Of a stretch of DNA of 64,000 nucleotides, positions 5,303 to 52,336 are shown in pieces. Positions within the stretch are counted from its first letter, which is position 1, and the number at the start of each line of letters is the position of its first letter. The notes beneath the pieces were generated by a model that saw only the letters and a program-made list of their open reading frames with translations, did no database searches and had not been told where the DNA came from. The stretch comes from Paraburkholderia sabiae (GTDB taxonomy: Bacteria > Pseudomonadota > Gammaproteobacteria > Burkholderiales > Burkholderiaceae). The translations under genes and the position numbers were made by a program. Location: assembly GCF_030412785.1 (NCBI RefSeq), contig NZ_CP125298.1, forward strand, positions 1-64,000, written 5' to 3'.

Positions 5303-5595
5303 AACGCAATTCTATGCTGCTCGCGGCAGGGCTTCTTGCGGCTGTCGCTCTCGTCGGTTGCAAGTCGCTTCCGACGCAAACACCCGCGCAGATCGCGGCG
5401 AATGTCTGCCTAGGCGTCCAGCCCGAGATTAACGTGCTCACGAAGTCGGGCGTCTTTACTCACGGCACACAGGCCACGCTGACCAAGCAGGTGCAGCCGA
5501 CCGTGCCTGTAGTGGTGATTGTCACCGGCATTGATACCGTATTGTCATTGCAACCCGCGACGACGGCGCCGACGACGGCGAGCGCGGAATCATGA
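5299..5595 (+). CDS. Small secreted lipoprotein
   Basis: 98 residues starting at ATG 5299 (MKRNSMLLAAGLLAAVALVGC). There is a basic N-terminus, a hydrophobic core and a clear lipobox L-V-G-C with Cys21 as the predicted lipidated residue. The mature part is short and polar, with a hydrophobic stretch (PVVVIVTGIDTVLSL) and a Thr/Ala-rich end. The start overlaps the preceding stop and its own stop overlaps the patatin start (both ATGA), so translation is probably coupled. The function is unknown. Position between a holin-like gene and a phospholipase suggests an Rz1-like or immunity-type envelope protein, but no motif proves it. Confidence 0.65.
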   Translation: MKRNSMLLAAGLLAAVALVGCKSLPTQTPAQIAANVCLGVQPEINVLTKSGVFTHGTQATLTKQVQPTVPVVVIVTGIDTVLSLQPATTAPTTASAES

Positions 5596-9385: not shown

Positions 9386-10264
9386 CGGAAGAGGTGGGAC
9401 CTCCAGTTGTGCGCGTGCTCCAACATCTTCATCGCCCAGCCGCGCTTGTTGCCGGTGGGAGGCTAGCCGCAAGGTGCGCCCAGGTAGCGAGCGATATGGG
9501 CGACGTTATTCGCGCGGCCTTGTGTGCAGATCCCATTTTGGGGGATTGGGCTCGTCGCGGTAAGATCCGGCGTGTCGCAAGTGTTGAAGAGCTATCGACC
9601 TTGCTGAATGCTCAAGTGGTGGACTGGATATTTTCGGGTTGTAATCCATTCGCATTGGCCGCGGATGTGTTGGGGCGAGTTCGTCAAGGCGCGTCCAAGT
9701 GTCGCGAAGGCCCGTTAGCGCGGTGTGCGGGAACTGCGGCAACTTCTTCGGTGCTGTTGGTCCAAGATGCCGAATGTGCCGTCAGGTGGCATCGCATCTA
9801 TGGTGGTGCGGACACCGGTCACCGGGTTGTTCAATCCCACGTGTTGATCACGCCAACCGATACCGCGTCAACTCTTGACCTCAAATGCTGCGAGGGTGGA
9901 GTCAAGGTATTCCGCGAACGTCTGACCGTTTTGGCGAGTGGAGAGGAGCTCAGTGCCTGTCCGCAGGCGCTAGATACGCCGACGCGAGTTTCCCGAACGT
10001 CGACGTCCGGATGTGGCGGGCTGCACTGCGAGGGGATCGACCCGCGCCAGATCTCTCGGGGACAACGACCGCCTGGACTTTAGGTCGTATCATTCCAATC
10101 GTTCTATGTGTGAAGGCTGTTGTCGCGATCAGGTGCTTGGAGGTGTCGTCTAACCGCTCGGGCTTATCGGCGGGCTCTCACTCCTTAAAATCACCCGGCA
10201 ATTGGCATGTGGCGACAGGTACGAGGATGTTGATGCTTGGTTCGACGGCTAAAATGGTCGGCCA
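9382..10264 (+). pseudogene. Broken formyltransferase (F) domain, former 5' end of the NRPS gene
   Basis: The first frame gives a methionyl-tRNA-formyltransferase-like fold: NAQVVDWIFSGCNPF, EGPLARCAGTAATSS, WHRIYGGADTGHRVVQSHV and ITPTDTASTLDLKC. After about 10000 the similarity continues in other frames (GDRPAPDLSG, then AIRCLEVSSNRSGLSAGS) and finally joins the NRPS frame as [11 protein letters not shown]. There are thus at least two frameshifts, plus a stop (TAA at 10250) just before the NRPS frame opens. By hand alignment, the catalytic Asn and His expected in the N-x-H-(D)-x-P-L-P motif are replaced (SKCREGPLA), although the Asp of GGADTG remains. The domain would have formylated the first amino acid but should now be inactive. 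Confidence 0.65.
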
Positions 10265-19200: not shown

Positions 19201-20290
19201 GCTTCTCGGTGTGGAGCGGGTCGGACGCCACGACCACTTCTTTGCGCTCGGCGGGCACTCGCTATTGGCGGTGCAGCTGATCAGTCGAGCACAAAAAGCA
19301 GGGCTGACGTTTAGCGCTGCCGACCTCTTCCAAGCCCCTGTTCTGAGGGAGCTCGCATCGAAGATTCATTTGAAGCGACAGCCCAGCAGTCCGCAAGTGA
19401 TTCCCGTTCTGGAAACGGGATCACAGCCACCTCTCTTCTTTGTTCCCACAGGATTGGGCGATTGTTCCTATGTCCCCGCCCTTGTGAAGGAAATGGACGT
19501 CGACTGTCCGGTCTATGCTTTGCCATGGCCGCATTTCGACGACGAACGTCCACTAACTCTTGAGGCACTAGCGGCGGAAGTAATGCTAGCAGTTAGAGAG
19601 ATCCAGCCACATGGACCGTATCGCTTTGCTGGATACTCATCAGGGGCAATCTTGGCTTACGCGATTGCGCAGCACTTAGTGAATCTGAATGAAGCTGTGT
19701 CATTCATGGCCTTCATGGATGCTGCGTTACCTGCAAATCGACGAAGCTTATCGCCGACCCAAATGGCACGGGAAGTGCTGCTGGATTCTGTGGAATTCTT
19801 GGAAGATGACAGCTTCCAGGTCTTAGAACGATTTGCTGCAAACAGCTCGATTGGTCAACTGATTCAAAAGGCACAGCAAATTGGGGCGATACCCCAGGAC
19901 CGTGATCTAGAAAGCCTTCTTCTGACGTATGAAAAGGCCGCGCAGTTCCAAAGGGCACTGGACTTGTATGAAGCTCCATCTCTTGGAATCGAGATCAACC
20001 AGTTTTATGTCAACGGACCTGTCCGCAGCCGTCGTGCACGAGGTTCAATAGGTCAGGACGCAAGTTCGCCGTTGCGGGGGTGGGGCAGGGTTTTACGTGC
20101 TGAAGCCATTCACGCCGTGTCCGTTCCGGGTGACCACACGACGATGATGAACACCCCAGAAAACCGCCGAGTTCTGGCTCGATGCCTTTCGATAGCCTTG
20201 AACAATTCACCAGACCGTCGGCGGCAATCGCAGGCGCCGCCGAGGGTTGTGGTGCAAATAGGGTTCTGTCGCGCCAAGGTGCCGGGTTAA
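10265..20290 (+). CDS. Three-module non-ribosomal peptide synthetase with thioesterase
   Basis: 3,341 residues. Order: partial condensation lobe (about 30-290), A1 (300-800), T1 (GGHSLL about 839), dual E/C domain (895-1350), A2, T2 (about 1923), LCL-type C with intact HHIVSDG (about 2118), A3, T3 (about 2996), thioesterase (3045-3330; GYSSG nucleophile, His in PGDHTTMM). The E/C domain carries HHLLATKGD, the extra His motif of dual domains, so residue 1 is probably epimerised. Hand-read pocket codes: A3 DVWHLSLIDK, serine; A2 near DLYNNALTYK, small residue such as Ala, uncertain; A1 S-I-L-H-L-G-C-T-F-K, lacking the Asp that binds the alpha-amino group. ATG 10298 with GAGGAA upstream is the likelier start than GTG 10265. 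The product would be a tripeptide ending in Ser. The last about ten codons lie in an IS6 end. Confidence 0.9.
12095..12808 (+). repeat. Near-identical A-domain C-lobe plus T-domain cassette, copy 1 of 3
   Basis: About 715 bp from ATTGCGAACACGCGG to the end of the carrier motif region recur almost unchanged at about 15346-16060 and 18569-19276. Copy 3 lacks one codon (AVVAQQ instead of AVVVAQQ). The specificity-determining cores just upstream differ completely, so this is intragenic recombination or conversion around swapped substrate pockets. Confidence 0.85.
14545..14905 (+). repeat. Near-identical A-domain N-lobe cassette, copy 1 of 2
   Basis: About 360 bp encoding [18 protein letters not shown] through [11 protein letters not shown] recur at about 17730-18090. 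Together with the C-lobe repeats, these bracket the unlike A2 and A3 pocket cores. Confidence 0.85.
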
Positions 20291-34003: not shown

Positions 34004-34546
34004 ATGAGAAGGAACAAGATTGCGTCCGCAGCCACCACATTGCGGACGCAGCTTATGACTGACCTACAAAGTGACTTTGACTTCCTGCCATTGCGGGTGA
34101 TCGGTAAATCGGCCGACGGCAAGAACCGGTACGACCGTGATGGCAAGCGCAAGCTGATCGAAGCGTGCCAGAAGCCGGGAGCCTCCGTTGCCGGGCTGGC
34201 ACTGAAGGCTGGCGTGAACGCCAACCAGCTTCGCAAGTGGATTGGCCTCGAGCGTAAAAAGACACGCTCGCGAACTGAACGGCAGCCGACACCAGCCAGT
34301 GCGCCGGCATTTGTTCCTGTTCTGGAAGCGGTTGATGCCGAACCTGTGCACTTGCCTCACATGCCGTCCCTGCCCGACGCCCAGCCGGCTGCTGCGCGGC
34401 GTGAACCGATGCGTCCGTCGCAACGCCCGCCGTTGCCGTCACGCCTGATGGCGCAGTTGCCCAACGGGGTGAGTCTTGAACTTGAATGTATGCAACAGGA
34501 CGCGGCGCTGCTCACAGCGATGATCGACGCATTGAGGAGCCGGTGA
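34004..34546 (+). CDS. tnpA: IS66 TnpA
   Basis: 180 residues, GGAG 7 bases before the ATG; an internal ATG at 34055 is possible. It contains a helix-turn-helix (EACQKPGASVAGLALKAGVN, ANQLRKWIGLE), then a Pro-rich linker and a short beta end (LPNGVSLELECMQQDAALL). Its stop overlaps the tnpB start (TGATG). Confidence 0.88.
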   Translation: MRRNKIASAATTLRTQLMTDLQSDFDFLPLRVIGKSADGKNRYDRDGKRKLIEACQKPGASVAGLALKAGVNANQLRKWIGLERKKTRSRTERQPTPASAPAFVPVLEAVDAEPVHLPHMPSLPDAQPAAARREPMRPSQRPPLPSRLMAQLPNGVSLELECMQQDAALLTAMIDALRSR

Positions 34547-34899
34547 TGCTGCGCTTCGCTGACGACCTGCGGGTCTATCTGCATCGCGAGCCGGTCGACT
34601 TCCGGTGCGGTATCAATACCCTTGCCGCTCTGGTTGAGAATTCGATGCGACTGGATCTGCTCGCTCGCGCCGTGTACGCGTTTCGCAACCGTAAATGCAA
34701 CCGGATCAAGCTCCTGCTGTACGAGCGCACCGGCTTCTGGCTGTTGTTGCGCCGCCTCGAGCAGGACCGTTTCGTGTGGCCGCGACGCGATCAGGAAGTG
34801 ATCGAGCTGACGACGCAGCAGCTCCACTGGCTGCTCGACGGCATCGACATCGACGCGCTTCGCCGTCATCCTGCACGCCATTACGAGCACGCCAGCTAG
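34546..34899 (+). CDS. tnpB: IS66 TnpB
   Basis: 117 residues, with the family signature YLHREPVDFRCGINTLAALV, then YAFRNRKCNRIKLLLYERTG, FWLLLRRLEQDRFVWPR and TTQQLHWLLDGIDI. Needed for IS66 transposition; exact role unclear. GAGGAG lies upstream. Confidence 0.93.
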   Translation: MLRFADDLRVYLHREPVDFRCGINTLAALVENSMRLDLLARAVYAFRNRKCNRIKLLLYERTGFWLLLRRLEQDRFVWPRRDQEVIELTTQQLHWLLDGIDIDALRRHPARHYEHAS

Positions 34900-34987
34900 C
34901 CCGGTACGTTGCACGTAAACAACGGCGGGCGCCTTTTACAAATTGACGTAAACCCACGGCGCACCGCGCTTCGCTATCCTGGAGCGC

Positions 34988-36628
34988 ATGAAGAATGCAC
35001 CTGACCTCAAGTGCGTACCCCGGGCTGTCCAGGGCTATATCCACGCCCTCGAAGCGCGCGTAGCCGGCGACGCGAAACACATCGACGAACTGAACCAGCG
35101 CGTCGGGCAGCTCGAGGAACAGGTCCGCCTGCTTACGGCCGAGCGTTACGCGCCGAAAAGCGAAAAACGCAAGGATCGCGTGTTCGACGAAGCCGAGCAG
35201 ATCGCCCGAAGCGAACCATGCGACGAGGAAGACGAAGGTATCCAGCCGGCGCTGCCTGACACCGGTTTGCCACCGGCCGGCAAGCCTGAGCGGCGCAAGG
35301 TGGGACGCAAGCCGTTGCCAGCGTATCTGAAGCGCGAACGCATCGAGTACGATCTGCCGGAAGACCAGCGGGGTTGCCCGTGTTGTGGCAATCCGATGCA
35401 TCGTATCGGCGAGGACATCAGCGAACAGCTGCATGTCGAGGTCAAATGGACGGTTAACCAGAACGTGCGTGCAAAGTACGCGTGCCGGCACTGCGAGCGT
35501 CACGCCGAACACACGCCGGTCGTGCTCGCACCGATGCCGGTACAGCCACTTCCGGGCAGCCATGCGGATGCGTCGGTGATCGCGACGGTCGCGACCGCGA
35601 AATACGTCGACGGCATGCCGTTGTACCGGATGCAGGCCGCCATGGCCCGCTGGCAGATTCCGGTGAGCCGGGGCACGCTGGCACACTGGGTCATCCGCCC
35701 AAGCGAATTGCACTACACCCGCCTGTACGACGCGCTGTACAGGACATTGCTGTCGCAGCCGCTGATCCACGGCGACGAGACCACGCTTCAGGTGCTCAAG
35801 GAACCCGGCCGGTCTGCGCAGAGTAAAAGCTATGCGTGGGTCTATCGCAGCGCCGAAGACTGTCCCGAACCCGTGGTGCTGTTCGAGTACCAGCCGGGGC
35901 GAGGCCAGGAGCATCCGAAGAAATTCCTCGGCGACTACAGCGGCATGTTGGTAAGCGACGGATACAGTGCGTGGCGCACGCTGAAAAAGGCAACGCACTT
36001 CGGCTGCATGGCGCACGCGCGCAGGCTGTTCGTCAAGGCGGACAAGGCGGCGCAGAAGAAAGGGGATGACGCAAAGCCGAAGCCGGCGAACGCTCGTGTG
36101 GCAAAGGCGCTTGAATACTTCCAGGCCCTGTACCGTGTCGAGGCGCTGGCCAAAGGCGATCTGCCTGCCGGCCAGACACGTGCCGACTACACATACGACC
36201 TGCGGCAGAAACACAGCGTGCCGGTGCTCGAGGCGTTCATGGCGTGGCTTGACGAACTGGCGCCGAAGGTGACGCCGCAGAGCCTGCTCGGTAAGGCGAT
36301 CGCCTATACGCGTAACCAGTGGGAATATCTGAGCCGCTACGTCACTGAAGGGCGAGCCGCAATAGACAACAACGTCTGCGAACGAGACGTCAGGCCGTTT
36401 GCCACGTCGAGGAAAAGCTGGCTGTTCAGCGACACAGTTGACGGTGCAAAAGCCAGTGCCACGATCTACAGTCTCGTGCTGACGTGCCGTGCCTGCGGTG
36501 TCGAACCGTACGACTACCTGTTGCACGTACTCAAGGAGCTGCCGCAGCGTCCACCGGACGCCGACGTGACGGACCTCTTGCCATTCAACTATGCGCGGCA
36601 TCAAGAGGCCAGGGCACAGGACGGCTGA
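34988..36628 (+). CDS. tnpC: IS66 transposase TnpC
   Basis: 546 residues. A coiled-coil start ([20 protein letters not shown]) with KSEKRK linker, zinc-ribbon region (CPCCGNPMHRIGEDISEQL; CRHCERHAE), DDE catalytic domain (LIHGDETTLQVLKEPG; GMLVSDGYSAWRTL; AIDNNVCERDVRPF) and C-terminal YDYLLHVLKELPQRPP. It appears intact and is the only complete IS66 transposase in the window. Confidence 0.95.
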   Translation: MKNAPDLKCVPRAVQGYIHALEARVAGDAKHIDELNQRVGQLEEQVRLLTAERYAPKSEKRKDRVFDEAEQIARSEPCDEEDEGIQPALPDTGLPPAGKPERRKVGRKPLPAYLKRERIEYDLPEDQRGCPCCGNPMHRIGEDISEQLHVEVKWTVNQNVRAKYACRHCERHAEHTPVVLAPMPVQPLPGSHADASVIATVATAKYVDGMPLYRMQAAMARWQIPVSRGTLAHWVIRPSELHYTRLYDALYRTLLSQPLIHGDETTLQVLKEPGRSAQSKSYAWVYRSAEDCPEPVVLFEYQPGRGQEHPKKFLGDYSGMLVSDGYSAWRTLKKATHFGCMAHARRLFVKADKAAQKKGDDAKPKPANARVAKALEYFQALYRVEALAKGDLPAGQTRADYTYDLRQKHSVPVLEAFMAWLDELAPKVTPQSLLGKAIAYTRNQWEYLSRYVTEGRAAIDNNVCERDVRPFATSRKSWLFSDTVDGAKASATIYSLVLTCRACGVEPYDYLLHVLKELPQRPPDADVTDLLPFNYARHQEARAQDG

Positions 36629-36712
36629 CACACCCGGCGCTCCTCGGCGGTGCCCTTACGCACGCCCTCAGTTGCACGACTCTCCGTTCGGTGTGCTAAA
36701 GCTGTCGCTTAC

Positions 36713-37676
36713 GCTCGAACGCCGGCACGCGGAACTGCTTCCACAGGCGGAGTACTTCCATGTCGTCTTCACACTTCCCGAACCCATCGCGGCGCTCGCG
36801 TACCAGAACAAACGCGTGCTTTACGACATGCTGTTTCGCGCCAGCGCCGGAACGCTGCGCACGATCGCCGCCGATCCGAAGCACCTGGGCGCCGAGATCG
36901 GCTTCATCACCATCCTGCACACGTGGGGGCAGAATCTGCAGCACCACCCGCACGTGCATTGTGTCGTGCCCGGTGGTGGCATCTCGCCGGACGGCGAGCG
37001 CTGGATCGCCTGCCGCCCCGGCTTCTTCCTGCCCGTTAGGGTCCTCTCACGCCTGTTTCGCCGCCTGTTCCTCGAGCAGCTGCGCCGCGCGTTCGACGCC
37101 GGCGGACTGCGTTTCCATGGCCAGCTCGAACCCCTGCACGATCCTCAGGCGTTCGCCGCGTGGCTTGCGCCCACTGCCCGGTCGGAGTGGGTCGTCTACG
37201 CCAAGCCACCCTTTGGCGGCGCTGAACACGTGCTCGACTACCTAGGCCGTTATACCCATCGCGTCGCCATTTCTAATAACCGGCTGCTGGGCTTCGACGG
37301 ACACGCCGTGCTGTTCCGCTGGAAGGACTATCGGCACGACGCCCGGCACAGCACCATGACGCTCACGGCCGACGAGTTCATCCGCCGTTTCCTTCTGCAC
37401 GTGCTGCCCGATGGCTTCAAGCGCATCCGCAGCTACGGCTGGCTCGCCAACTGCCACCGTGCCGCCAAGCTCGCCACCTGTAGGCAGCTGCTCGGTGTCG
37501 AGGCTCCCGCCGCTGCTGCAGCTGAGCCCAGGGAAGACTACCGTGACCGCTTCCAGCGACTCACCGGCAGGTCACTGCGCGACTGCCCCATGTGTGGCAA
37601 GGGACACATGCTCCGCATCGAAGACATGCCCGGCAGCCTTCCACGAGCCCCGCCAGGTCCCAACCATGCGCGCTAG
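36713..37676 (+). pseudogene. IS91-type transposase, 3' part
   Basis: Continues as ERRHAELLPQAEYFHVVFTL and carries the HUH motif (HHPHVHCVVPGGG) and the tyrosine region (LDYLGRYTHRVAISNNRL). It ends GSLPRAPPGPNHAR. No own start. The open frame reaching back into IS66 (from 36591) is an artefact of the junction. Confidence 0.9.
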
Positions 37677-38580: not shown

Positions 38581-38826
38581 CTCGAGGCCGAGATCAGCCG
38601 GCTGAAAACCGAAGCGGCGGCGCGTGAGCGGGAACTGGAGAAGGTGAGAGAGGGGTTTTCGCGGGATCTGGACAAGCTGCGCGAGACGGCTGAACGGGCC
38701 GACGAGCGCCTGCGCGCCACGGAGAAACGCGCACTGCTCGAGATCGACCGCGAGCGGGGCGCCGTCGCGAAGCGGAAACGGTACTATCGGTACAAGTCAG
38801 ATTCGAAGTACGGTGAATCGGGATAG
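38581..38826 (+). pseudogene. KfrA-like coiled-coil fragment
   Basis: The frame open from the IS6 tip reads LEAEISRLKTEAAARERELE, then RETAERADERLRATEKRALL and EIDRERGAVAKRK, a continuous charged coiled coil with the ADERLRATEKRALLEIDRER segment typical of plasmid KfrA proteins. The N-terminal DNA-binding domain is missing (cut by IS6) and the C-terminus runs into non-homologous sequence. It suggests that plasmid backbone once lay here. Confidence 0.6.
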
Positions 38827-39416: not shown

Positions 39417-39446
39417 TTGAAAGGTTCCTGATCGAACCGCTACAAT
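39417..39446 (+). promoter_or_regulatory. Sigma-70-type promoter of the STAND/HEPN operon
   Basis: TTGAAA (39417-39422), 18-base spacer, TACAAT (39441-39446). Transcription would start near 39453, giving a leader of about 24 bases with GAGAGGG before the ATG at 39477. Confidence 0.6.
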
Positions 39447-39476
39447 TTGCAAAGCAACGAAAAATGAGAGGGTTGC

Positions 39477-42400
39477 ATGTCCGGGGCGTGGCAGGTGCAT
39501 CGAACGAATGAAGGTAGAGTGGCGGCGGAAGCGGTCCAACGACTGTGGCAATTGCTTCCTGGTCCAGAAAAGCTTGATTTTTGGAGTTCAGCCGTTGAAT
39601 ACGCCCGTGGCATTGACCACGGGAGCTTGATGTACAAGCGACTATGCGTTGCTGTTAAAGCAGCCGAGTCCGGAAGAGCCGCGCCTCGCGCGGGGGTTGC
39701 GCTGCTGCGCTCGGCCCGAGATCTTTCGACACCCGATCTTTGTCGGGCGATCAACAAATGTAGAGATCAACTCTTCTCCTTCGCGGACGCCACGCCGTTT
39801 TTGACAGCTTCGCTGTGTCGATGGGTTCAAGCGATTTGGAAGAAACCATTGATTGCACTTCTGGACGCGGTGCGGTGTCCGCATGATCAGCATGGCAGTC
39901 TCAGAGGCGATATGCCCGACGTCGATCCGGAGGACGCGACTGAAAAGGTACGTCAACTCGCGGCGACATATCCCCCAAATGACATCGCAATCGTTTGCGC
40001 AGCGCTTATGCTGTCCAATTCCCGATGGAACTGTCTGGAAGTGGCGTTTGCAACTCTCCAAGATCTCCCGCAGCGCCCGGAAGTTGCCTCTCCTCCTGCC
40101 AATCCCGATGCCAAAGTCGATGAGCCTGCCACTATGTCGATCAACGATGGAACAATGAACCCGCCTGTCGGACAAGATCTGGTCAACGCCATACGAGACG
40201 GTCTTGTCGAGTTGAAAGCTGGCCTGCTCTCAACGGCGAAAGAAATTGATACTGGCGTTATTCCAGATCTAGCAGATGTTATCCAATTGCGGTCTGGACT
40301 GCATGAACTCCACGCCAGGGCGGCTAAGGAGCTGCGGGTATCAGGTTCGCGTATTGCAGACTTGGAAGCGGCACTCAAACAGCGCGACAGGCATGCACGA
40401 GCTTTGGCGAACGTCGAGAGATGTCGGTCGATTGTGCATCGGACTGAGCCGTCATATCCGGGCCGAGCAGAGATTTGGCGCAAATGTGACGAACTCGAGA
40501 GCGGCATTCTGGCGAGCGGTGGAGCGCTCCCGGCAGATCAGCCGGTCGCAGCGCTCCTTCGACTTGTTGACGAAGGGGAGTCATTAGGCGACGAGGATGC
40601 TGCGCAACTTCAGTGGGAGATTGAAGCCTTCTTTGGGCGTGCGGTCGCGGCCGCTGCGGTTCGAGGCAACTTGATATTCGGCCGACCTTCGTATTCCGCG
40701 GCTCAGCCGGCGGGCAGCGCGGCAGAACCAATCGTGGAACAGTCATCGCCAGATACCGATCGCGGTGATCTAGCGCAAGGCGGTGACGGGCCGGCCGGTT
40801 GCCGCAGCGAAACGGAGCAGATACTGGAGCCGCGGAGGTATGACGCGGCGAGTGACGGGCCGTTGGCAGAGGCGATGCCGACTGGACGAATCGAAGGCTG
40901 CCCCGAAGTCGAGACTTTGGAAGGCGGCGAGCAAGACGCAGCTGACGAGGGGGCTCCAGGCGAATCCGAGGTGATTGCGCCGGCGCCCGACGGCGATGCA
41001 TCGAGCATCGAGCAGAATCCCCCGCAACATTCCTCCGAGGGACCCAGACTTGTCGCCCCGTCATTCGTTTCATTCGGAGAGTTTTGCCAGACTCGCTGGG
41101 TGGACGCTGGCGGGCACATTGCCCCGGCGCCGTGGATTCAGTCTGATCTTCAATTCGAACTCGCCACACACTGCGTGGAGGCTTGGGCGCGAGGAGAGAT
41201 GAGTGTTGCGTACCTCTTTTGCCGCGCGTGCGATTCCCTCGGGATGTCCGCGCCGGTTTCTCTGGAGGATCTCGCAAGCGCGGATGAATTGCTGTCCGCT
41301 CCAGACTCGACGCGCTCAGGTCAGGATCTGTTACGGGCAGATCGACTGCGACGCATGCTTGCAGCCGCACCTGCGGCATCGGATCAGATGTCAGCAGGTG
41401 TAGGACTGATGCTGGAAGCCCTTCGTCCAACCATGTCCGGTACCTTGGCCCAGGCTGAAGTGGAGCTTTTGCTGCAACGCGCTGCCTACGGCGATCCCGC
41501 GTTTGGCGAGGTCGTCCGGTTTCTATTTGCCGGATGGGCCGCGCAGTTGAATCCGCTCGACTCGCTTCGAGCGCGACTTCTGAACAGCCCCCAGGAATCG
41601 ATGGAGGAGCTTAAAGTCGCGCTGCGGCATGCCCAGACGGCGCTGAAAACCGAGGTCGCAACGCTCTGGAGTGCCGCAGGCGGGAAAATCAAGCACACAC
41701 ACAGCCGCTCGGCATGGACTAAGTTTGTCGAAGAGCAGGTCGCACCGCTCAAGGATGAACTCGTGCCTGCCAGCCTGAAGGCAAGTATCCAGTCTAAGTG
41801 GACGCGGGCACGAATCAGCGCTCGTGTTGTTGACGTGTCACGTGCATTCAAACGCATCATGGACGCCGGCAATGTAAGGCATCAGGACAGGTCGGTGGCT
41901 GAGAGTGCTGCACAGCAGATCGTTGAGGCAATCGATCGACTTGCCGGCATACTGGAACGGCTTGCGGCCCATCAGCAACAGGCCCATGCATCCTATGATG
42001 GTATTCCCCGCGAAGCGGCTCTGCGCCTGCTTGGCGGTGCATCGTCCAACACGACAGACCGGCTGTCTGCCGAGCTATTTTCAGCGGTGGTCCGGGAGCA
42101 GACGGCGGTTCATCCGCTGAGGCTGCCCGCCGGCTACCTGATCAATCACGTCGACATCGTCAAGTATCTGAATTCGGACGCACTGACGCGTCCTGAGATC
42201 GGAGACGGCGGAATCGATGTAACCGGTTTCGAGAATTCCATCCCGGTGGCGGTACTACTGATCGGCTGGCATATGCAGCCGCCCGCCCCGGTCGAGGATG
42301 ACAACGCATTGCTATCCGCATTGAGAGACATTGCGGCAGCAAGCGAGCGACGGGACATTCTTACGGCTCTTTCCAGCACCGACGTGCTGCAATCTCACGA

Positions 42401-45400
42401 GCGGACGCTTCTGCATCGGTACGCGCTCGAACTGCAGGACGAAGCATTCGAAGCAGCGAAGAAACTGGAGAGCGTGTGGGGTGCGTGCAACGAGTTGATG
42501 TCACCCGTCGAGGCGAAGCTCGCGGCGCTTGTCCGGGAAGCGTTGGCCCTGACTGGGGTCGGGGCTGCAGCAAATGCGTCCATCACAAAAACCCTGCTTC
42601 TGCTCGCGTGGCTGCGTGATGCTGTCACGGTAGCGGAAGAGCATCAGACCGTTGCCGCGAACGCGATTTTGGCGGCGGCGCGCGACAAGTCGGAAGATCT
42701 GGCACAACGTATTCAATCCTATCTTGAAGTAGACGACTACCGGTCCGCAGTCGCACTTTTCCATACCGGCGATGTCCCCAAAGCCACCGCGGATCGTCTG
42801 GCAGGCAGACGAACGCTTTGGAGGGACGACGCAATCAAAAAGTGGCCAGAACCACGAGCGAAGCTTCGCAATGGTTTCCGTGGATCCACAGAGGACCTCA
42901 CACGGTTGACTGATGCATGGATGGCAGATTCGATAGACGCGAGCCAGCACGATGGACTGCCAAAGCTGTTCTACGCGGTGATCAGTGGAGAAGCCGGGCG
43001 TTCCACTAACGAGAACCAGAAGCGTTTTCCGGTACGGCTCGCTGACCTGCGGGAACATAAAGATCGAAAAACCAGCATAAGCTGCGAGACGGTCCGACGC
43101 TACTTCCAGAAATCAAGGCTGAATCCTACGTTTCTGCCTCAACTGGATGAGTTCAGCCAGATAGTCATAATGGCTGCTCCGCATCGTGGCGGCTACGGGG
43201 CGAGCGTGCTGGATGACTGGAGCAAAGCAGTTACTAGCGAGGCAGCCGAATCGCTCGTTGTTTTTCTGGCGCCAGGTATTCCTTCAACACGTCGTGATGA
43301 CCTTAGCAGTGGACTTCGCAAGCGTGGCATCACCGCCGCCATTGTCGACGATGTCGACCTCTGCCGACTGTATGCGGCGTCGGACGTGGCGGCCGGGCAC
43401 GATTTCATTCCGTTCCTCGAAATACTGCTTGAGCAGCTTGATCTGGATCGGGCCTCGCCGTTTTCAAGTCTCGATGGCCAGCATGTGAGGCTTGAAACCT
43501 ATACGGGGAGAACGGAGGAGGCGCGCAGACTTGCCCTCGGCGGTACGTACACACGCATTTTCTCCGGGAGAAAACTGGGCAAGAGCGCGTTGCTCAAATG
43601 CGTTGCAAACACCTATGACGGGTTCCAACTCGCGTCCGGTAACGAACTGAGCGTCATCTTCATTACGATTGCCGGAGGTGAGTCGGAGCGGTGGGTTGTT
43701 GATTGCATACTGGAGGAGATGGCCAACCGTTTCAATCTGCAAGAGACGGCAGATCTTCGGGATCAATCGCCGGCAGTACGATTTTCTGCCTACATGAAGC
43801 GCTTTTTGGCGGAGAGACCGAGTCACAGTGTATTGCTGATTTTGGACGAGGCGGATGCCTTTGTCGAAGGACAACTGGCGCGATACGACACGGACCGCGA
43901 GGGCTCTCTCAGTTTTCGGATGATGAAGGAGGTTACTTCGACAGTTGACGCGAAACAGCTGCCCCGTATCCGAACGGTTTTTTCCGGTTATCGTATTACA
44001 GACACTCGTGGTGGCGTATGGGCGAACGCAGGCGATGTGCTGATACTGCGACCCCTCGCCGAAGAAGATGCTGTTCAGTTTCTCCAAGGGATGCTCGCGC
44101 GAATTGGCGTTGCGCTTGGGAGCCATGCTCCTTTCGTCGCCATGCGGTGCGGATTCCAACCAGCGGTCCTGATCAGATTTGGAGAAAATCTTGTCAAACG
44201 CCTTAAGCGTTCGAGTCGTTCCGCGAACAGGGAGACGTTGATTGTTGGTCATGATGAGGTACTTGCGACACTGGGTGAACCTGGCGTCCTCGACGAGATC
44301 AAGACTGTCGTCAACAACAACTTCCAGGGGAACCGCATTGGCGCAGTCATCTTTGGCGCGACCTTGCTTGCGCTGAAAGATCTCGAGCCCGGGCTCGCGT
44401 TGACCGACGGACCTGTCCAAGTCCTTGCCAAGCTTCGCGAGATTGATCCGAATCTCGACTGGCTTCAGCAGTTTGACGCATCGGCGTTGGGCCTGATCGA
44501 ACGGAATTTGCGCGATTTTATCAATCGCGAGCTCTTGACGGTGTCGGATGGCCCTCAATTTGGCGTTAGAGAGTATAAGCTTCGCTTTCCTCACTTCCTA
44601 CCGGTGCTCACACAACAATCAGAAATCGCTCTAGAAGTCAGGCAACAGATCCAGGCTATTCGGGGCGGCGCGTTTCAAAGACGGCTTTCTGAATGTGTGC
44701 TGTCGGAAAGCTCTCTGGAAACCGTTCGCTACTGGTACCATCAGGAACAAAGCGAACTGTGCAAACTGGTGGTGGTGGGTGGACATTGGGTGTCCGCTTT
44801 GACCGACACCAAATGCGGCCTGCCTGATCGTCTCGGTAGTGAGTGCAGGACTCTGGACGACATGTCGCCAGATAGTCTGGCTGCCGACGGGTGCCGGGTG
44901 TTCTGTTCTGCTACGATTTCCCAGTGGCCCTCGTTTCTTTCCGGCAATGCCGAACGACCGCTTGTGCTGATCGGCGGAACTGACCTGCAACGTACGGCGA
45001 GACGATACGCGCTCGCGGGAGGGGATGCTCCGGTAGAGACGGTCACGCTGGGCCGTTTGACCGAGGCCACGCTCGGCTGGTGGTTTGAAGATGCGAGGGC
45101 ACTGCACTTCAAGAGCGGGGATGCTATCAGCAGGATAGCATCGGCAACGGAGCGGGTACCTTACTTGGCTGAAGCGTTTGACCGGTTGCTCGACCATGCA
45201 CCGGGTTCAGACGTGACACAAGACGAACTGGAGGCTGCGCTCTCTGCGTTGGAGATGGATCTGCCGAATCTGGGCCGCAAGCTGAGAGACATGTCTTCCG
45301 TTGACGGCCTGACCCCTCGCGAAATCTCTTTGCTGAGAATGGCTGTTCAAGTTGCGGAAGAGGACATCGATGAATTCGATCTCGAACGCGAGTTTCCTGA

Positions 45401-45623
45401 GCTCTGGGAGGCGTCGGGACTCTCGCGAGCTGGCGAAGAGCCGCCATTGAGTATCGCAGATGACTGGTCCTCGCTGAAGCTGTTGATCGATCTCGGACTG
45501 ATGCCGCAGACAGCTGAAGCAGGCACTACCCGAGACTCACGATCGCTGGGAAGAGTCCGCTTTAACAAAGGCGGCACCTTAGTTCGGCTGATCAAGGCGC
45601 TGGAGTCTTCAGATGCAGCTTGA
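39477..45623 (+). CDS. Giant 2,048-residue STAND-like P-loop NTPase, putative defence protein
   Basis: GAGAGGG precedes ATG 39477. Residues 1-400 are alpha-helical with a coiled coil near 255-325; 405-530 is an acidic low-complexity linker; 540-1200 is helical and unlike any family I recognise. Residues about 1225-1305 form a Rossmann-like block (SQIVIMAAPHRGGYG; SLVVFLAPGIPSTRRDDL; ITAAIVDDVDLCRL) often seen ahead of NTPase modules in large conflict proteins. The NTPase follows: LETYTGRTEEARRL, Walker A GRKLGKS (1364-1370), Walker B LLILDEAD (Asp1457, Glu1458), sensor-like TVFSGYRITDTRGG. A winged-helix-like part lies near 1640-1710, then a second NTPase-like region (KLVVVGGHWV; LVLIGGTD) and helical end. 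Architecture fits a sensor/switch ATPase of an immune system. Not matched to a named system; function is inference. Confidence 0.75.
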   Translation: MSGAWQVHRTNEGRVAAEAVQRLWQLLPGPEKLDFWSSAVEYARGIDHGSLMYKRLCVAVKAAESGRAAPRAGVALLRSARDLSTPDLCRAINKCRDQLFSFADATPFLTASLCRWVQAIWKKPLIALLDAVRCPHDQHGSLRGDMPDVDPEDATEKVRQLAATYPPNDIAIVCAALMLSNSRWNCLEVAFATLQDLPQRPEVASPPANPDAKVDEPATMSINDGTMNPPVGQDLVNAIRDGLVELKAGLLSTAKEIDTGVIPDLADVIQLRSGLHELHARAAKELRVSGSRIADLEAALKQRDRHARALANVERCRSIVHRTEPSYPGRAEIWRKCDELESGILASGGALPADQPVAALLRLVDEGESLGDEDAAQLQWEIEAFFGRAVAAAAVRGNLIFGRPSYSAAQPAGSAAEPIVEQSSPDTDRGDLAQGGDGPAGCRSETEQILEPRRYDAASDGPLAEAMPTGRIEGCPEVETLEGGEQDAADEGAPGESEVIAPAPDGDASSIEQNPPQHSSEGPRLVAPSFVSFGEFCQTRWVDAGGHIAPAPWIQSDLQFELATHCVEAWARGEMSVAYLFCRACDSLGMSAPVSLEDLASADELLSAPDSTRSGQDLLRADRLRRMLAAAPAASDQMSAGVGLMLEALRPTMSGTLAQAEVELLLQRAAYGDPAFGEVVRFLFAGWAAQLNPLDSLRARLLNSPQESMEELKVALRHAQTALKTEVATLWSAAGGKIKHTHSRSAWTKFVEEQVAPLKDELVPASLKASIQSKWTRARISARVVDVSRAFKRIMDAGNVRHQDRSVAESAAQQIVEAIDRLAGILERLAAHQQQAHASYDGIPREAALRLLGGASSNTTDRLSAELFSAVVREQTAVHPLRLPAGYLINHVDIVKYLNSDALTRPEIGDGGIDVTGFENSIPVAVLLIGWHMQPPAPVEDDNALLSALRDIAAASERRDILTALSSTDVLQSHERTLLHRYALELQDEAFEAAKKLESVWGACNELMSPVEAKLAALVREALALTGVGAAANASITKTLLLLAWLRDAVTVAEEHQTVAANAILAAARDKSEDLAQRIQSYLEVDDYRSAVALFHTGDVPKATADRLAGRRTLWRDDAIKKWPEPRAKLRNGFRGSTEDLTRLTDAWMADSIDASQHDGLPKLFYAVISGEAGRSTNENQKRFPVRLADLREHKDRKTSISCETVRRYFQKSRLNPTFLPQLDEFSQIVIMAAPHRGGYGASVLDDWSKAVTSEAAESLVVFLAPGIPSTRRDDLSSGLRKRGITAAIVDDVDLCRLYAASDVAAGHDFIPFLEILLEQLDLDRASPFSSLDGQHVRLETYTGRTEEARRLALGGTYTRIFSGRKLGKSALLKCVANTYDGFQLASGNELSVIFITIAGGESERWVVDCILEEMANRFNLQETADLRDQSPAVRFSAYMKRFLAERPSHSVLLILDEADAFVEGQLARYDTDREGSLSFRMMKEVTSTVDAKQLPRIRTVFSGYRITDTRGGVWANAGDVLILRPLAEEDAVQFLQGMLARIGVALGSHAPFVAMRCGFQPAVLIRFGENLVKRLKRSSRSANRETLIVGHDEVLATLGEPGVLDEIKTVVNNNFQGNRIGAVIFGATLLALKDLEPGLALTDGPVQVLAKLREIDPNLDWLQQFDASALGLIERNLRDFINRELLTVSDGPQFGVREYKLRFPHFLPVLTQQSEIALEVRQQIQAIRGGAFQRRLSECVLSESSLETVRYWYHQEQSELCKLVVVGGHWVSALTDTKCGLPDRLGSECRTLDDMSPDSLAADGCRVFCSATISQWPSFLSGNAERPLVLIGGTDLQRTARRYALAGGDAPVETVTLGRLTEATLGWWFEDARALHFKSGDAISRIASATERVPYLAEAFDRLLDHAPGSDVTQDELEAALSALEMDLPNLGRKLRDMSSVDGLTPREISLLRMAVQVAEEDIDEFDLEREFPELWEASGLSRAGEEPPLSIADDWSSLKLLIDLGLMPQTAEAGTTRDSRSLGRVRFNKGGTLVRLIKALESSDAA

Positions 45624-46935
45624 GGTTTCTCTGGCGGGATTCTCTTCGAGCTGGTTGTACCGCGGTTCACGGAACTTTACGGCGTGGGCTGAGGCCAAAC
45701 CTTGGCTTCTCGAAGGTGGAGTGTGTGTTATTCGTGCCGAACCTGGCCACGCCAATGGCTTGGTGTTTTCGAGCGTTACTCGTTTCCTTCACGGCATCAA
45801 CAGTGGAGAGCGCCCGCTGGATGTCAAGAATATAGAGTGCGGCGGCACAAAGGGCTCACCCATCGAAGCGCTGCTGTGCGAATTCGAACTGGGCTCGGAC
45901 ATCAGTCCGTTTCAGGCACGTGATCGCATTGCCAATCGTCTCCTCGACCGCTCCCTCGTTCTGGTCTTCACCGAGCGGGCTGCCGTTGATCCCAATGACT
46001 GGGAACACCTTGTCAACCTGCTTGAGCACTTTCGGAAAGCTTCAAAGCCCGTGCGTCTGTGCGCGATAATCATTGACGTAAGGGGCGTCGTCCATTCAGA
46101 GCCGGTCTGCGATTACGCGAGCGGTCGCCCGTCGCATACTGTTTTCTCGGATGCTTCATCTATCAGCGCTACGAGAGCACTTTGGTCTTCTTATCTCCAT
46201 CATCGAGTCGCCTGGGAGGCGGGTGGAAGTCTATCGTATGCACTATCGCTTTCGAGGGAGGTAGAGAAGTGCGTACCGGGCGACGACGACGAACTGGAGC
46301 GCCATCTTCAAGCACACGCAGAAGCAGCACTGCTGGCGCATCGGGGGCGTGAGAACCTGTTTGGGTGGACTGGCGTCGGAAGCGGGGGCACTCGGGTGGA
46401 CGCCGCGCGGCGGCAGTCAACGACGACCGGGCTTTTCGCGATGGGGTTGCTCTGGCGGCCGCCTGCCATGAACGGCTTTCATGTCGTACCGTGGGCGTCG
46501 AGAGTGCTTCTGCGCTTGCCGGACTTACCCAAAACGCAGGTCTGGACGTTGCGTCATCAACTGGTTTGTGCCCCGCTTGCTGCTGAGATCCTCTCGCTCT
46601 GCCTGAAGTTTGAAAGCCAGATCCAGACGCGGCTCCACGGCAGGCAAAAGCCGGATCACATTTCGCAGAAGATGATCGATTCGCATACCAGGTTCAAGGA
46701 TGGAAACGATGCCTATGTGGTCTATCCGGACGCATTCCCACTGCGACCGGAGCGCGAAGAAGACGTGTGGGCATTCGCGTCACTTGGCGAGGTTCTTAAA
46801 AGCTGCCCGCCTGGCGCAGTTTCAGATCCCTATTGGTGGACATTGCAGTTGCGCAATGCGATCGCTCATGGCCACTACGTTGGCTGGAGTCATGTGGAAT
46901 CCGCGCTTCGGATGCGCAATATCTTTGACACGTAA
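45613..46935 (+). CDS. AAA-like protein with C-terminal HEPN-type RNxxxH motif, partner of the giant NTPase
   Basis: 440 residues. The start overlaps the upstream gene by 11 nt, with GGAG 7 bases before, so the two are translationally linked. Residues 36-50 (GVCVIRAEPGHANGL) sit where a Walker A would be but lack the Lys-Ser/Thr. A Walker-B-like strand (SLVLVFTE, about 112-119) and a sensor-like strand (LCAIIIDVRG) follow, so it looks like an inactive P-loop domain. The C-terminal 120 residues are helical and contain LRNAIAHGHYVGW, with Arg414 and His419 in the Rx4H spacing of HEPN ribonucleases. A plausible model is an RNase or toxin effector controlled by the giant NTPase. The HEPN call rests on one motif and helix content. 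Confidence 0.65.
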   Translation: MQLEVSLAGFSSSWLYRGSRNFTAWAEAKPWLLEGGVCVIRAEPGHANGLVFSSVTRFLHGINSGERPLDVKNIECGGTKGSPIEALLCEFELGSDISPFQARDRIANRLLDRSLVLVFTERAAVDPNDWEHLVNLLEHFRKASKPVRLCAIIIDVRGVVHSEPVCDYASGRPSHTVFSDASSISATRALWSSYLHHRVAWEAGGSLSYALSLSREVEKCVPGDDDELERHLQAHAEAALLAHRGRENLFGWTGVGSGGTRVDAARRQSTTTGLFAMGLLWRPPAMNGFHVVPWASRVLLRLPDLPKTQVWTLRHQLVCAPLAAEILSLCLKFESQIQTRLHGRQKPDHISQKMIDSHTRFKDGNDAYVVYPDAFPLRPEREEDVWAFASLGEVLKSCPPGAVSDPYWWTLQLRNAIAHGHYVGWSHVESALRMRNIFDT

Positions 46936-47044
46936 CGATAGGTCGCGAATGTTTCGTAAGGGGCCGGTGAAGTCAGGTTGAGATTCGTGGCCTGCGCATA
47001 GGAGCATCGTGTCCATCATAAAGCGTGATGGAGACGTGTACACG

Positions 47045-47437
47045 ATGGCTGATGACGATCGGATTGATGATGGAGTGGTGCCGGCAATAGAGCGTCGCAA
47101 ACACAGCAGGGAATTCAAGGAGATGGTGGTGCGCGCGGCGATGCAACCGCACGTGTCGATTGCGGCGGTGGCGCTGCATTACCGCCTGAACGCAAACCTG
47201 CTGCGCCGATGGGTAGTGGCAGCGCGACAGCATGCGGGTGCCCATCCGGCGCCGGACGAAGCGCAGCCGCCACCGACGACGGCATTCGTGCCACTACAAC
47301 TACAAGCGCCAGTTGCTGCAACTGATCGGGGCGAGATCCGCATCGAGATTCGCCGCAGTGCTGCCACGATTACGCTCTACTGGCCGGTGTCGGCGGCCGA
47401 TGATTGCGCGGCCTGGCTACAGGGGTGGTTGCGATGA
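47045..47437 (+). CDS. tnpA: IS66-2 TnpA
   Basis: About 130 residues from ATG 47045 (MADDDRIDDGVVPAIERRKH); a GTG at 47009 is less likely. Helix-turn-helix (FKEMVVRAAMQPHVSIAAVA, NANLLRRWVVAAR), Pro-rich middle, beta end (GEIRIEIRRSAATITLYWP). The stop overlaps the tnpB start. Confidence 0.88.
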   Translation: MADDDRIDDGVVPAIERRKHSREFKEMVVRAAMQPHVSIAAVALHYRLNANLLRRWVVAARQHAGAHPAPDEAQPPPTTAFVPLQLQAPVAATDRGEIRIEIRRSAATITLYWPVSAADDCAAWLQGWLR

Positions 47438-47769
47438 TCCGCATCGACGCGATCTGGCTGGCAACTGAGCCCGTGGACATGCGTGCGGGCGCCGATACGC
47501 TGCTCGCACGCGTGGTCAAGGTATTCGGCGCGGCGCGCCCGCACCATGCTTACCTGTTTGCCAACCGGCATTCGACGCGAATGAAGGTACTGGTCTACGA
47601 CGGCCTGGGGATCTGGCTGGCCACGCGGCGCCTGAATCGCGGGCGGTTTATATGGAGCAACGGCGAGCAGGCCGTTGCACTGCCGCTGAACCAGGAACAG
47701 TTACGGGCACTGGTCACGGGACTGCCGTGGCGCACGCTGGCCAGCGATCACGCCATTACCGTGGTGTGA
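47434..47769 (+). CDS. tnpB: IS66-2 TnpB
   Basis: 111 residues from ATG 47434 (ATGA overlap with tnpA). Family segments: IDAIWLATEPVDMRAGADTL, AYLFANRHSTRMKVLVYDGL, GIWLATRRLNRGRFIWSNGE and LNQEQLRALVTGLPW. Intact. Confidence 0.93.
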   Translation: MIRIDAIWLATEPVDMRAGADTLLARVVKVFGAARPHHAYLFANRHSTRMKVLVYDGLGIWLATRRLNRGRFIWSNGEQAVALPLNQEQLRALVTGLPWRTLASDHAITVV

Positions 47770-47832
47770 AGGCGACGCGCACGTAAACAGTTTCGCTTCC
47801 TGATGCGTGGTGTGTCTGGCAGACTCGATGTC

Positions 47833-47912
47833 ATGGACCTGCCCGTCGATCTCACCACGCTCAGCCCCGACCAGCTTCGCGCACTGGCCGCACAGCTGGC
47901 CGTCCAGCTTGC
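47833..47912 (+). pseudogene. tnpC: IS66-2 tnpC, piece 1 (N-terminus)
   Basis: ATG 47833 starts MDLPVDLTTLSPDQLRALAA; the frame meets the IS21-D tip after 80 nt. The three pieces, joined with single copies of the target repeats, total 1,512 nt (504 codons). Confidence 0.85.
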
Positions 47913-47993
47913 TGTTAGCGCCGATGTGAAACTGACCCACCCGCCGAGGTAAACCTGACCCGCCTGGGAGAGGATGGCGGCTTTTTGCCGCCG

Positions 47994-49795
<1,802 letters not shown>

Positions 49796-50000
49796 CACAG
49801 GGTGTCACCGTGCGGCACTATGGAGCCATTTCGAGGGCGGCATAAAGGCGCCACCTGAGGGGCGGCGTAATGGCGCCACCTCACGTGCGGCGTAAAGGAG
49901 CCACCCGAAAGGCGGCGCATAGGCGCCAGCAGCACCAGGGCTAGAGCGCGATTCGAACTTTTCAAGTCGGTACGCTCCGTTCTATTTGAACGGAGCGTCC

Positions 50001-51542
50001 ATGGCCAACAGGAGGTTCGAATTGTTCGAGTACCGCCAAGTCCTTGTCCGCATGCGGCAAGGCGATTCCGACCGCGACATCGCTCGCGGCGGCTTGATGG
50101 GACGCAAGAAGCTGACGACTGTGCGGCGCCAGGCCGAGGCACGGGGATGGCTCGATCCCGCCCAGCCGCTGCCGGATGACGCAGTGATCGCTGGCGTTTT
50201 TGGTCGCTCGCCGCACTTGCCGCACACCTGCGTGTCGACGGCAGAGCCGTTTCGTGAACAGATCCGAAGCTGGGCGGCCGCCGGCGTGCAGGGCACCACG
50301 ATCCATGCCGCCCTTCAGCGCAATCACGGCTACACCGGCAGCTATGACGCCGTGAAGCGCATGCTGCGTCGCCTGGCCGCCGAGCGTCATCCGGTCGGCA
50401 CGACGACGATCCTCGAATTTGCGCCAGCGGACGCCGCCCAGGTTGACTTTGGCGCCGGGCCGGTGCTCAGGCACGAGTCAGGCCTTCCGCTCAAGACGTG
50501 GATCTTTGTGATGACGCTCTGCTGGTCGCGTCACCAGTACGCGGAGATCGTCCTGGACCAGACGGTCGAGACGTGGTTGGCCTGCCACCGGCGGGCGTTT
50601 GAATGGTTCGGCGGTTGCCCTGGCCGGGTCATCATAGACAACGCGAAGTGCGCGATCATCAAGGCCTGCCGTTATGAACCCGCAGTCCAGCGCTCCTATG
50701 CCGCGCTAGCCGAGGGATATGGATTCCGGATCGACGCATGTCCACCGCACGACCCGGCCAAGAAGGGAATCGTTGAATCCGGAGTCAAATACGTCAAGAA
50801 GTCCTTCGTACCACTACGCGAGTTCCGGGATCTGACCGACGCCAACCGGCAATTGCGCGAGTGGGTCTCCCAGCAGGCGGGCACCCGCGAGCACGGCACG
50901 ACCCGCGACCAGCCACTCGCGCGCTTTGCGATCGAACGCCCGCTGCTCACGCGGCTGCCTGACGTGCCGCCGGTGCTGGCAGTGTGGAGCGAGGTGAAGG
51001 TGCATACCGACGGCCACGTCGTCTACAAGAACGTGCTCTATTCAGTGCCCTTCACGCTGGTGGGCAAGCAGTTGTGGCTGAAGGCCACCGACACGGTCGT
51101 GCAGGCGTTCCACCGCCACGAGCTCGTCGCGACCCATCCGCGACTACGCAAGCCTGGCGACCGCCATACGGTGCGTGATCATCAGCCGCCAGAGGCGCAG
51201 GCATGGCTTGAACATGACCCGCAGTGGTGTCTGGCGCGTGCAAAGGACATCGGGCCTGCCTGCCACGCAGTGATCCTCGCAATGTTCAACGACAAGGTGC
51301 TCGTCAACCTGAGGGGCGCGCAGGGCCTTGTGCGTTTGCGCGAGAAGTACGGTGATGTGCGCCTGAACGCCGCCTGCGAGCGCGCACTCGCGTTCGCGAA
51401 CCCGAAGTATCGCACCGTCAAGACCATTCTCGACAAGGGACTCGATAGCGAGCAGGCAGCCACACAAACACCGGCACCATCCGACACGTACCTGAACGGC
51501 GGTCGCTTCGGCCGTGATCTCCAGTCCATCCTTCTGCACTGA
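50001..51542 (+). CDS. istA: IS21-C transposase IstA, copy 2
   Basis: The 513-residue product is identical to copy 1, including the HTH and DDE regions. Intact. Confidence 0.95.
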   Translation: MANRRFELFEYRQVLVRMRQGDSDRDIARGGLMGRKKLTTVRRQAEARGWLDPAQPLPDDAVIAGVFGRSPHLPHTCVSTAEPFREQIRSWAAAGVQGTTIHAALQRNHGYTGSYDAVKRMLRRLAAERHPVGTTTILEFAPADAAQVDFGAGPVLRHESGLPLKTWIFVMTLCWSRHQYAEIVLDQTVETWLACHRRAFEWFGGCPGRVIIDNAKCAIIKACRYEPAVQRSYAALAEGYGFRIDACPPHDPAKKGIVESGVKYVKKSFVPLREFRDLTDANRQLREWVSQQAGTREHGTTRDQPLARFAIERPLLTRLPDVPPVLAVWSEVKVHTDGHVVYKNVLYSVPFTLVGKQLWLKATDTVVQAFHRHELVATHPRLRKPGDRHTVRDHQPPEAQAWLEHDPQWCLARAKDIGPACHAVILAMFNDKVLVNLRGAQGLVRLREKYGDVRLNAACERALAFANPKYRTVKTILDKGLDSEQAATQTPAPSDTYLNGGRFGRDLQSILLH

Positions 51543-51547
51543 GTGTC

Positions 51548-52336
51548 ATGAATCCAAGTCCCGAACTGAACACCATCCTCAAGCAGTTGCGCCTGTCCGG
51601 GGTCCTCGACTCGCTTGAGCAGCGCAACCGGCAGGCAATCGAGGGGCAACTCGCTTACACCGAGTTCCTTGCCATGCTTCTGCATGACGAGGTCGCACGA
51701 CGCGACCAGAAGAAGTTCGGCGCGCGGATCACCCGCGCCGGCTTCGCGCTAGGCAAGACGCTCGAGACCTTCGACTTCGACCGGCTGCCAAAGCTAAACC
51801 GGGCGCACGTTCACGACCTCGCCACCGGCCGCTACATCGACGAGAAGGTCTGCGTCCTGATGGTCGGCCAGACAGGCGTCGGCAAATCGCATCTGGCGCA
51901 GGCGCTCGGGCATTGCGCCGTACGCCAGGGTTGCGACGTACTGTTCATCACGCAGACGGATCTGCTCAAGAAGCTGCACGCAGCGCGCGCCACGGATCTC
52001 TATGAACGCAAGTTCCAGCAGTTCGTGCGTGTGCCGCTGCTTATCGTTGACGACTTCGCGCTCAAGCCACTTCGCGCACCTCATGACGAAGACTTCCATG
52101 ACCTGATTGCCGCCAGGTATGAGCGGGCAGCCTCGATCCTGACTTCAAACCTGGACTTCAGTGAATGGGGTGAGGCTTTCCCTGACAACCGCATTCTCGG
52201 AGCCGCCACGCTCGACCGCCTTCGTCATGGTGCCTATCGTGTCGTCATAGAAGGCGAGAGCTTCCGCAAGCCAAAGCCGATGCCTGAAAGCAGCGAAAAT
52301 GCGGTTGCTAAAAACGGTAAAAGACCGCAATCTTGA
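51548..52336 (+). CDS. istB: IS21-C helper ATPase IstB, copy 2
   Basis: The 262-residue product is identical to copy 1 (Walker A GQTGVGKSH). Intact. Confidence 0.95.
   Translation: MNPSPELNTILKQLRLSGVLDSLEQRNRQAIEGQLAYTEFLAMLLHDEVARRDQKKFGARITRAGFALGKTLETFDFDRLPKLNRAHVHDLATGRYIDEKVCVLMVGQTGVGKSHLAQALGHCAVRQGCDVLFITQTDLLKKLHAARATDLYERKFQQFVRVPLLIVDDFALKPLRAPHDEDFHDLIAARYERAASILTSNLDFSEWGEAFPDNRILGAATLDRLRHGAYRVVIEGESFRKPKPMPESSENAVAKNGKRPQS

Follow-up and report, generated by a model that had tools for sequence, protein, structure and literature searches.

Among the systems compared here, the closest counterpart in design is nSTAND2, predicted by Kaur et al. 2021 (PMC8195603) as a mobile operon whose two genes both encode STAND proteins. 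In the sections of that paper drawn on here, one of the two STAND proteins is active, whereas the other has eroded nucleoside triphosphate (NTP) motifs and is fused most commonly to a GT4 or a HEPN domain; an arginine finger is conserved in the two. A second point of comparison is bacteriophage exclusion (BREX), in which BrxB is an inactive STAND protein without Walker motifs and HEPN can be present on the DUF499 ATPases (PMC12839542, in the portion consulted). In this study, we undertook a computational analysis of a two-gene locus of Paraburkholderia sabiae that lies within the first 64,000 nucleotides of contig NZ_CP125298.1 (assembly GCF_030412785.1), a stretch referred to below as the window. 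The two genes, as placed by the open reading frames of the window, are:

39477-45623, + strand: gene 1, for a predicted STAND nucleoside triphosphatase (NTPase) protein of 2048 residues (open reading frame, homologues, motifs, structure model)
45613-46935, + strand: gene 2, for a 440-residue protein with a predicted inactive AAA+/STAND fold and a HEPN-like C-terminus (open reading frame, homologues, structure model)

We consider it reasonably probable that this pair is a two-component, STAND-switched system against invaders, most likely anti-phage and abortive. The observations behind this explanation are the conservation of the pair, the NTPase folds predicted by the models, the intact NTP-binding motifs of gene 1 and their loss from gene 2, the order of the HEPN residues, a patchy distribution, and the presence of defence genes as neighbors in 8 of 19 loci. 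The original prediction, made from the letters of the window alone, held that the architecture matches no named system, which was too strong given that a two-gene nSTAND2 operon with HEPN appears among the predictions of PMC8195603.

The two reading frames overlap by 11 nucleotides, as had been claimed, and are taken to be real genes because gene 1 has 133 and gene 2 has 116 homologous protein clusters at E <= 1e-3 (own protein included in each case; 120 of the gene-1 clusters listed). The closest full-length homolog of gene 1 among the matches listed has 78% identity across 100% of the length, and 95 of the 120 rows in the alignment, including that of the window, begin in a common column. When one genome per species was scanned for gene 1, 18 loci were obtained beyond the window, with gene 2 directly behind gene 1 in 14 of them. 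Three others are cut by contig ends, namely L006, L011 (an alphaproteobacterial metagenome-assembled genome, MAG) and L019 (a Dehalococcoidia MAG), and a single locus, L016, is without gene 2. The 14 paired loci belong to Burkholderiales, Ectothiorhodospira, Myxococcota (plus a MAG named Deltaproteobacteria) and Planctomycetes, the pair being present in the phyla Pseudomonadota, Myxococcota and Planctomycetes. Intergenic spacing ranged from -62 to +4 nucleotides across 16 pairs (the 14 loci, a further locus L023, and the window), and the distance matrices of the two genes in those pairs were correlated with r = 0.94, a value reached in 0 of 2000 permutations. Gene 1 and gene 2 co-diverge, and the expectation that both would co-occur across genomes was confirmed by these counts. 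The pair is rare: of 399 genomes in the order, only its own had gene 2, and in the genus 3 of 144 did; these counts are lower bounds, with up to 4 and 12 candidates scored per genome.

Gene 1 was divided into the following regions and motifs:

39477-40676, + strand: residues 1-400, N-terminal region (occupancy 0.63 in the alignment)
40677-41066, + strand: residues 401-530, variable linker with the lowest conservation (alignment)
41067-43046, + strand: residues 531-1190, candidate sensor (inferred role; residues 849-1188 helical in the model)
43047-43406, + strand: residues 1191-1310, small alpha/beta block (model)
43425-44696, + strand: residues 1317-1740, predicted STAND/ORC-type NTPase with winged helix (model, profile comparison)
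43566-43586, + strand: Walker A GRKLGKS, residues 1364-1370 (alignment)
43833-43850, + strand: Walker B LLILDE, residues 1453-1458 (alignment)
44697-45620, + strand: residues 1741-2048, second alpha/beta and helical region, possibly a degenerate NTPase (model, weak profile match)

The structure model of gene 1 covers residues 849-2048, and fold comparison of its core (about 1317-1727) revealed resemblance to the nucleotide-binding and winged-helix modules of ORC/Cdc6, Avs3 and NLR proteins. The P-loop NTPase with helical lid and winged helix that characterizes STAND proteins is present in the predicted model and motifs, which supports the assignment of gene 1 as a STAND-like NTPase, as originally proposed. 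The P-loop, GRKxGK[ST], is kept in all 55 aligned gene-1 proteins (the window's row included), and many further invariant positions occur in the stretch 1315-1570. Because the P-loop is invariant, gene 1 is expected to act as a nucleotide switch. Both Walker motifs were found where they had been placed, and the residues K1369 and D1457, as well as R414 and H419 of gene 2, had been numbered correctly. As to the domain order that had been suggested, a Rossmann-like block, NTPase, winged helix and second NTPase-like (alpha/beta) region are all seen in the model of residues 849-2048, and the helical N-terminus of about 1,200 residues holds for residues 849-1188. Residues 1-400 are rarer across the other loci, which is partly due to cut contigs. 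At L004:10064-13468, the gene-1 frame matches only residues 894-2047, without the N-terminal part, and gene 2 there is full length.

Both NTPase modules, including the winged helix, are predicted to share their fold with CED-4, Apaf-1 and the plant NLR resistosomes, although this likeness is at the level of fold only (about 10% identity) and the effector and sensor parts differ. In Avs proteins, effector, NTPase and C-terminal sensor are joined in one chain. The pair differs from Avs (AVAST) in having its presumed effector on a second protein and the NTPase toward the C-terminus of gene 1, and no PADLOC model matched.

Gene 2 has two predicted parts and a motif:

45616-46545, + strand: residues 2-311, AAA+/STAND fold without Walker A (model, fold comparison, alignment)
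46531-46932, + strand: residues 307-440, HEPN-like helical domain (model, motif)
46852-46869, + strand: RNAIAH (R-x4-H), residues 414-419 (alignment)

Most fold matches of gene 2 spanned residues 2-311 only, and a Walker A motif was found in 0 of 38 aligned gene-2 proteins, the window's own included. The model supports the N-terminal part as an inactive AAA+/STAND domain, and the inactive P-loop partner that had been proposed is borne out. For the C-terminus, the relevant standard is that of the HEPN ribonucleases, which have Rx4-6H, R being followed by a polar residue, at the end of helix 3 and an acidic residue in helix 2, typically as Ex3[KR] (Anantharaman et al. 2013, PMC3710099, in the part drawn on here). 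Helices are predicted in the gene 2 C-terminus at residues 307-316, 320-341, 405-419 and 425-439, with an insert. The third of these stops at H419, so that the R-x4-H motif, here R-N-x3-H with a polar residue following R, stands at its end. The helix-2 acidic residue is E334 in helix 320-341, and position 338 is basic (R or K) in 20 of 38 proteins. All 38 gene-2 proteins, the most divergent of which is 26% identical to that of the window, share E334, R414, N415, H419, G420, H421 and W425. These features, together with the insert between helices 2 and 3, are like those described for HEPN ribonucleases in the consulted part of PMC3710099; unlike them, the gene 2 domain matches no Pfam family and shares its chain with an inactive STAND. 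Judged by its motif and the order of its helices, the C-terminus of gene 2 is probably HEPN-type. The earlier proposal to that effect stood as regards the invariant residues and the order of helices, including the placement of R414 and H419 at the end of the expected helix of the model, and was not matched by an equally clear profile comparison. A search with the C-terminal domain alone recovered the family itself and P0233, a 316-residue protein on a 4.5-kb contig in which a metallo-beta-lactamase-like start is joined to the gene-2 C-terminal domain. This chimera may be a fusion or an assembly error.

The likeness to nSTAND2 extends to several features. The pair is a conserved two-gene operon with tight spacing, STAND modules are predicted in both of its proteins, and NTP motifs are eroded in one of them, as Walker A is kept in 55 of 55 gene-1 proteins versus 0 of 38 gene-2 proteins. 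An inactive STAND joined to an effector may be a further common point, with HEPN indicated here by residues and helix order and weak by profile. In addition, the gene-1 NTPase profile aligned over 235 columns with six nSTAND2-like modules taken as a set (probability 96.3%, E 1.5e-9). Those modules were drawn from three of four regions by Walker A and a length over 250, and comprise two Pfam-matched genes and four neighbors; taken singly, they gave 1.2-59%. The second region of gene 1 had a weak profile match to the same set (19%, E 0.0012), and none above 1.1% to its single members. Gene 2 gave no alignment with the set (0.15%), and neither gene 1 nor the 38 gene-2 members had an hmmscan match to the Pfam family nSTAND2, PF20702. 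That family had no match in the P. sabiae genome and none in 200 genomes of the order, and its matches in the phylum were confined to 4 of 299 genomes, with scores of 23.7-40.7 bits. Gene 1 departs from nSTAND2 in its very large size, in the location of its NTPase within the C-terminal half, and in having another region that is NTPase-like. We conclude that the pair is a close relative of nSTAND2 in design, not a filed member, because the architecture agrees but the sequence test is mixed (positive for the gene-1 profile, negative for PF20702 and gene 2).

The models searched do not recognize the pair. PADLOC had no family at E <= 1 for either protein, NCBIfam had no match for gene 1 or gene 2, and Pfam gave none for the window's gene 2 and for gene 1 only AAA_22 below threshold (E 0.0016, 19.2 bits versus a cut-off of 27). 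The PDB sequence search returned nothing for gene 2 and only chance-level rows for gene 1. A literature search under the name nSTAND2 found no study beyond the prediction in PMC8195603. As far as we found, the layout has been predicted once in print, and defence activity of the pair is a prediction only. Four newly validated systems with HEPN domains are reported in the part of PMC13092281 consulted.

Recognized or candidate defence genes occur near the pair in 8 of 19 loci (the 18 loci and L023; flanks partly scanned), which bears out the defence-gene context that had been sought. Type I restriction-modification and GmrSD genes are directly upstream of the pair in L002, E2-E1-JAB proteins are close to it in L003, L004 and L007, and L006 has a defence-type reverse transcriptase near gene 1, along with a DUF2201 protein. 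Wadjet JetC and JetD are near the pair in L008 and a candidate PDC-M48B in L010, while L017 has a helicase together with a type IIG-like methylase. Related WYL regulators are located within 9 kb of the pair in five loci (L002, L004, L007, L010 and L023); WYL regulators of the cyclic-oligonucleotide-based antiphage signaling system (CBASS) and of BREX have been reported. PADLOC matches at <= 1e-8 were obtained for 15 of 30 hand-picked flank proteins versus 1 of 10 control proteins. Homologs were not confined to housekeeping contexts, even if ordinary-looking genes flank the pair in L005 and L018. In L023, the pair lies behind tnsAB, tniB and tniQ-like genes. The E2-E1-JAB protein in L003, L004 and L007 is adjoined by a protein of about 350-420 residues, weakly metallo-beta-lactamase-like in L003.

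In an anti-phage system of this kind, gene 1 would be held in a resting state until an invader signal is sensed via its variable N-terminal region of about 1,200 residues. Nucleotide exchange at the P-loop would then lead to assembly through the NTPase modules, and gene 2, which has no usual ATP-binding motifs but keeps the fold, could join that assembly as its effector subunit. HEPN domains brought together in pairs would cut RNA, and growth would stop. A more specific form of this proposal, which we advance tentatively and hold as somewhat short of an even chance, is that of a bipartite, NLR-like, hetero-oligomeric 'apoptosome': an active sensor, switched by ATP, would bring in a catalytically dead STAND subunit and with it the HEPN ribonuclease domains. 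The pair would then represent a clade outside Pfam nSTAND2 that is found in at least three phyla.

Several results weigh against an anti-invader system of this design. L016 has a gene 1 (8981-14455) with no recognizable gene 2 within 3.5 kb behind it; the best tblastn hit there with 38 gene-2 proteins was a 37-residue match on the opposite strand (E 0.003), taken as chance, and this gene-1 homolog could pair with another effector. Plasmid and phage records, from which those near its own genome may be left out, contained nothing matching gene 2, and viral contigs nothing matching gene 1. A HEPN domain was recognized by Pfam in none of the 38 gene-2 members, and against DUF4145 the gene-2 C-terminal profile ranked first of 31 windows but with a weak score (E 0.0057, probability 6%). 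Abi_C, tried as the nearest HEPN family, was not above controls in profile comparison. The 15 PADLOC-matching flank proteins include two Tn7-like transposon genes and one generic kinase, and as the flank proteins were chosen by hand, not sampled, they constitute support and not a test. One batch of ten flank proteins gave this kinase only, and L005, L009, L013, L014 and L018 yielded no defence gene in the small number of proteins searched there. Of other HEPN families, HEPN_Apea had one member in 120 genomes and was not used for comparison. The fold-match lists of both proteins had no HEPN or BrxB structure among their rows, which is no evidence of absence.

The alternative that survives best, although we regard it as unlikely, is a toxin-antitoxin-like unit, made up of gene 2 as a HEPN toxin and gene 1 as the protein that regulates or inhibits it, and selected for addiction, not defence. 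The two-gene order, tight coupling and HEPN toxin motif would fit such a unit, as would the placement of the pair among insertion sequences (read by eye). However, to our knowledge a 2,048-residue STAND antitoxin is unprecedented, the invariant P-loop points to a nucleotide switch, and the pair has defence genes as neighbors. Next comes the possibility, likewise improbable in our judgment, that gene 2, with the architecture unchanged, is the sensor and that its HEPN domain binds nucleic acid without catalysis. Inactive STAND domains were proposed as nucleic-acid-binding receptors in the part of Kaur et al. (PMC8195603) consulted. However, the catalytic set of R, N, H and the acidic residue of helix 2 is shared by 38 of 38 proteins, and such invariance would be unexpected in a domain that only binds.

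Behind these stands the doubtful proposal of an accessory role for the pair in BREX- or restriction-modification-like systems, with gene 1 as a BrxC/DUF499-type ATPase and gene 2 as a BrxB-type inactive STAND, serving a neighboring methylase. The arrangement of an inactive STAND beside a large STAND ATPase is indeed like that of BrxB and DUF499/BrxC, and in a subset the ATPase is joined to HEPN (PMC12839542, in the portion consulted). Moreover, restriction-modification or methyltransferase genes adjoin the pair in L002 and L017, and BrxB (C4:139606-139971) and PglZ (C4:148668-149195) are encoded on the pair's own contig, probably as a BREX locus. That locus is about 93 kb from the pair, however; the pair itself has no methylase or PglZ, and a methyltransferase was recognized beside it in only 2 of 19 loci (flanks partly scanned). 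Profile comparison with BrxB (4 sequences) and DUF499 (12) was at noise for both proteins (under 1% for the gene-1 NTPase). Less probable still is a mobile-element accessory, with gene 1 as a MuB/TnsC/IstB-like AAA+ protein for target choice or transposition that travels with insertion sequences, as the gene-1 NTPase was at noise (under 1%) against one TniB and two IstB proteins, transposase genes were among family-searched neighbors only in L023 (flanks partly scanned), and the HEPN residues would be unexplained.

If the anti-phage explanation is correct, the pair would offer an experimental entry to a defence class predicted in 2021, with sensing split from killing and a dead ATPase as adaptor. 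It would also reveal the way in which an inactive STAND subunit works, which is an open question for BrxB as well, and would add a HEPN-type effector family missed by PADLOC models.

Upstream of gene 1 are two short candidate elements:

39417-39446, + strand: promoter-like site TTGAAA-N18-TACAAT (consensus match only, 10/12)
39466-39472, + strand: possible ribosome-binding site GAGAGGG, 4 nucleotides 5' of ATG (read from the sequence)

The promoter-like site that had been assigned to the pair is the sole exact match to TTGAAA-N18-TACAAT in the window, but the region is not clearly enriched for such sites, with 4 found versus 2.5 expected (standard deviation 1.5). The flanks at 34004-37676 and 47009-52336 are presumably insertion sequences, IS66-, IS91- and IS21-like as read by eye from translations, and it is plausible that the pair is the only non-mobile cargo between these nests. 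An open stretch at 38585-38800, between transposase-like fragments and the pair, was read by eye as a coiled coil and had no Pfam match; possibly it is a remnant of a plasmid or integrative-element gene. Elsewhere in the window, a 3341-residue nonribosomal peptide synthetase is encoded at 10265-20290 (condensation, adenylation and carrier domains, three of each, plus a thioesterase), a patatin-like phospholipase gene lies at 5592-6455, and an AraC-type regulator at 609-2078 weakly matches, below the cut-off, a model for type III secretion chaperones.

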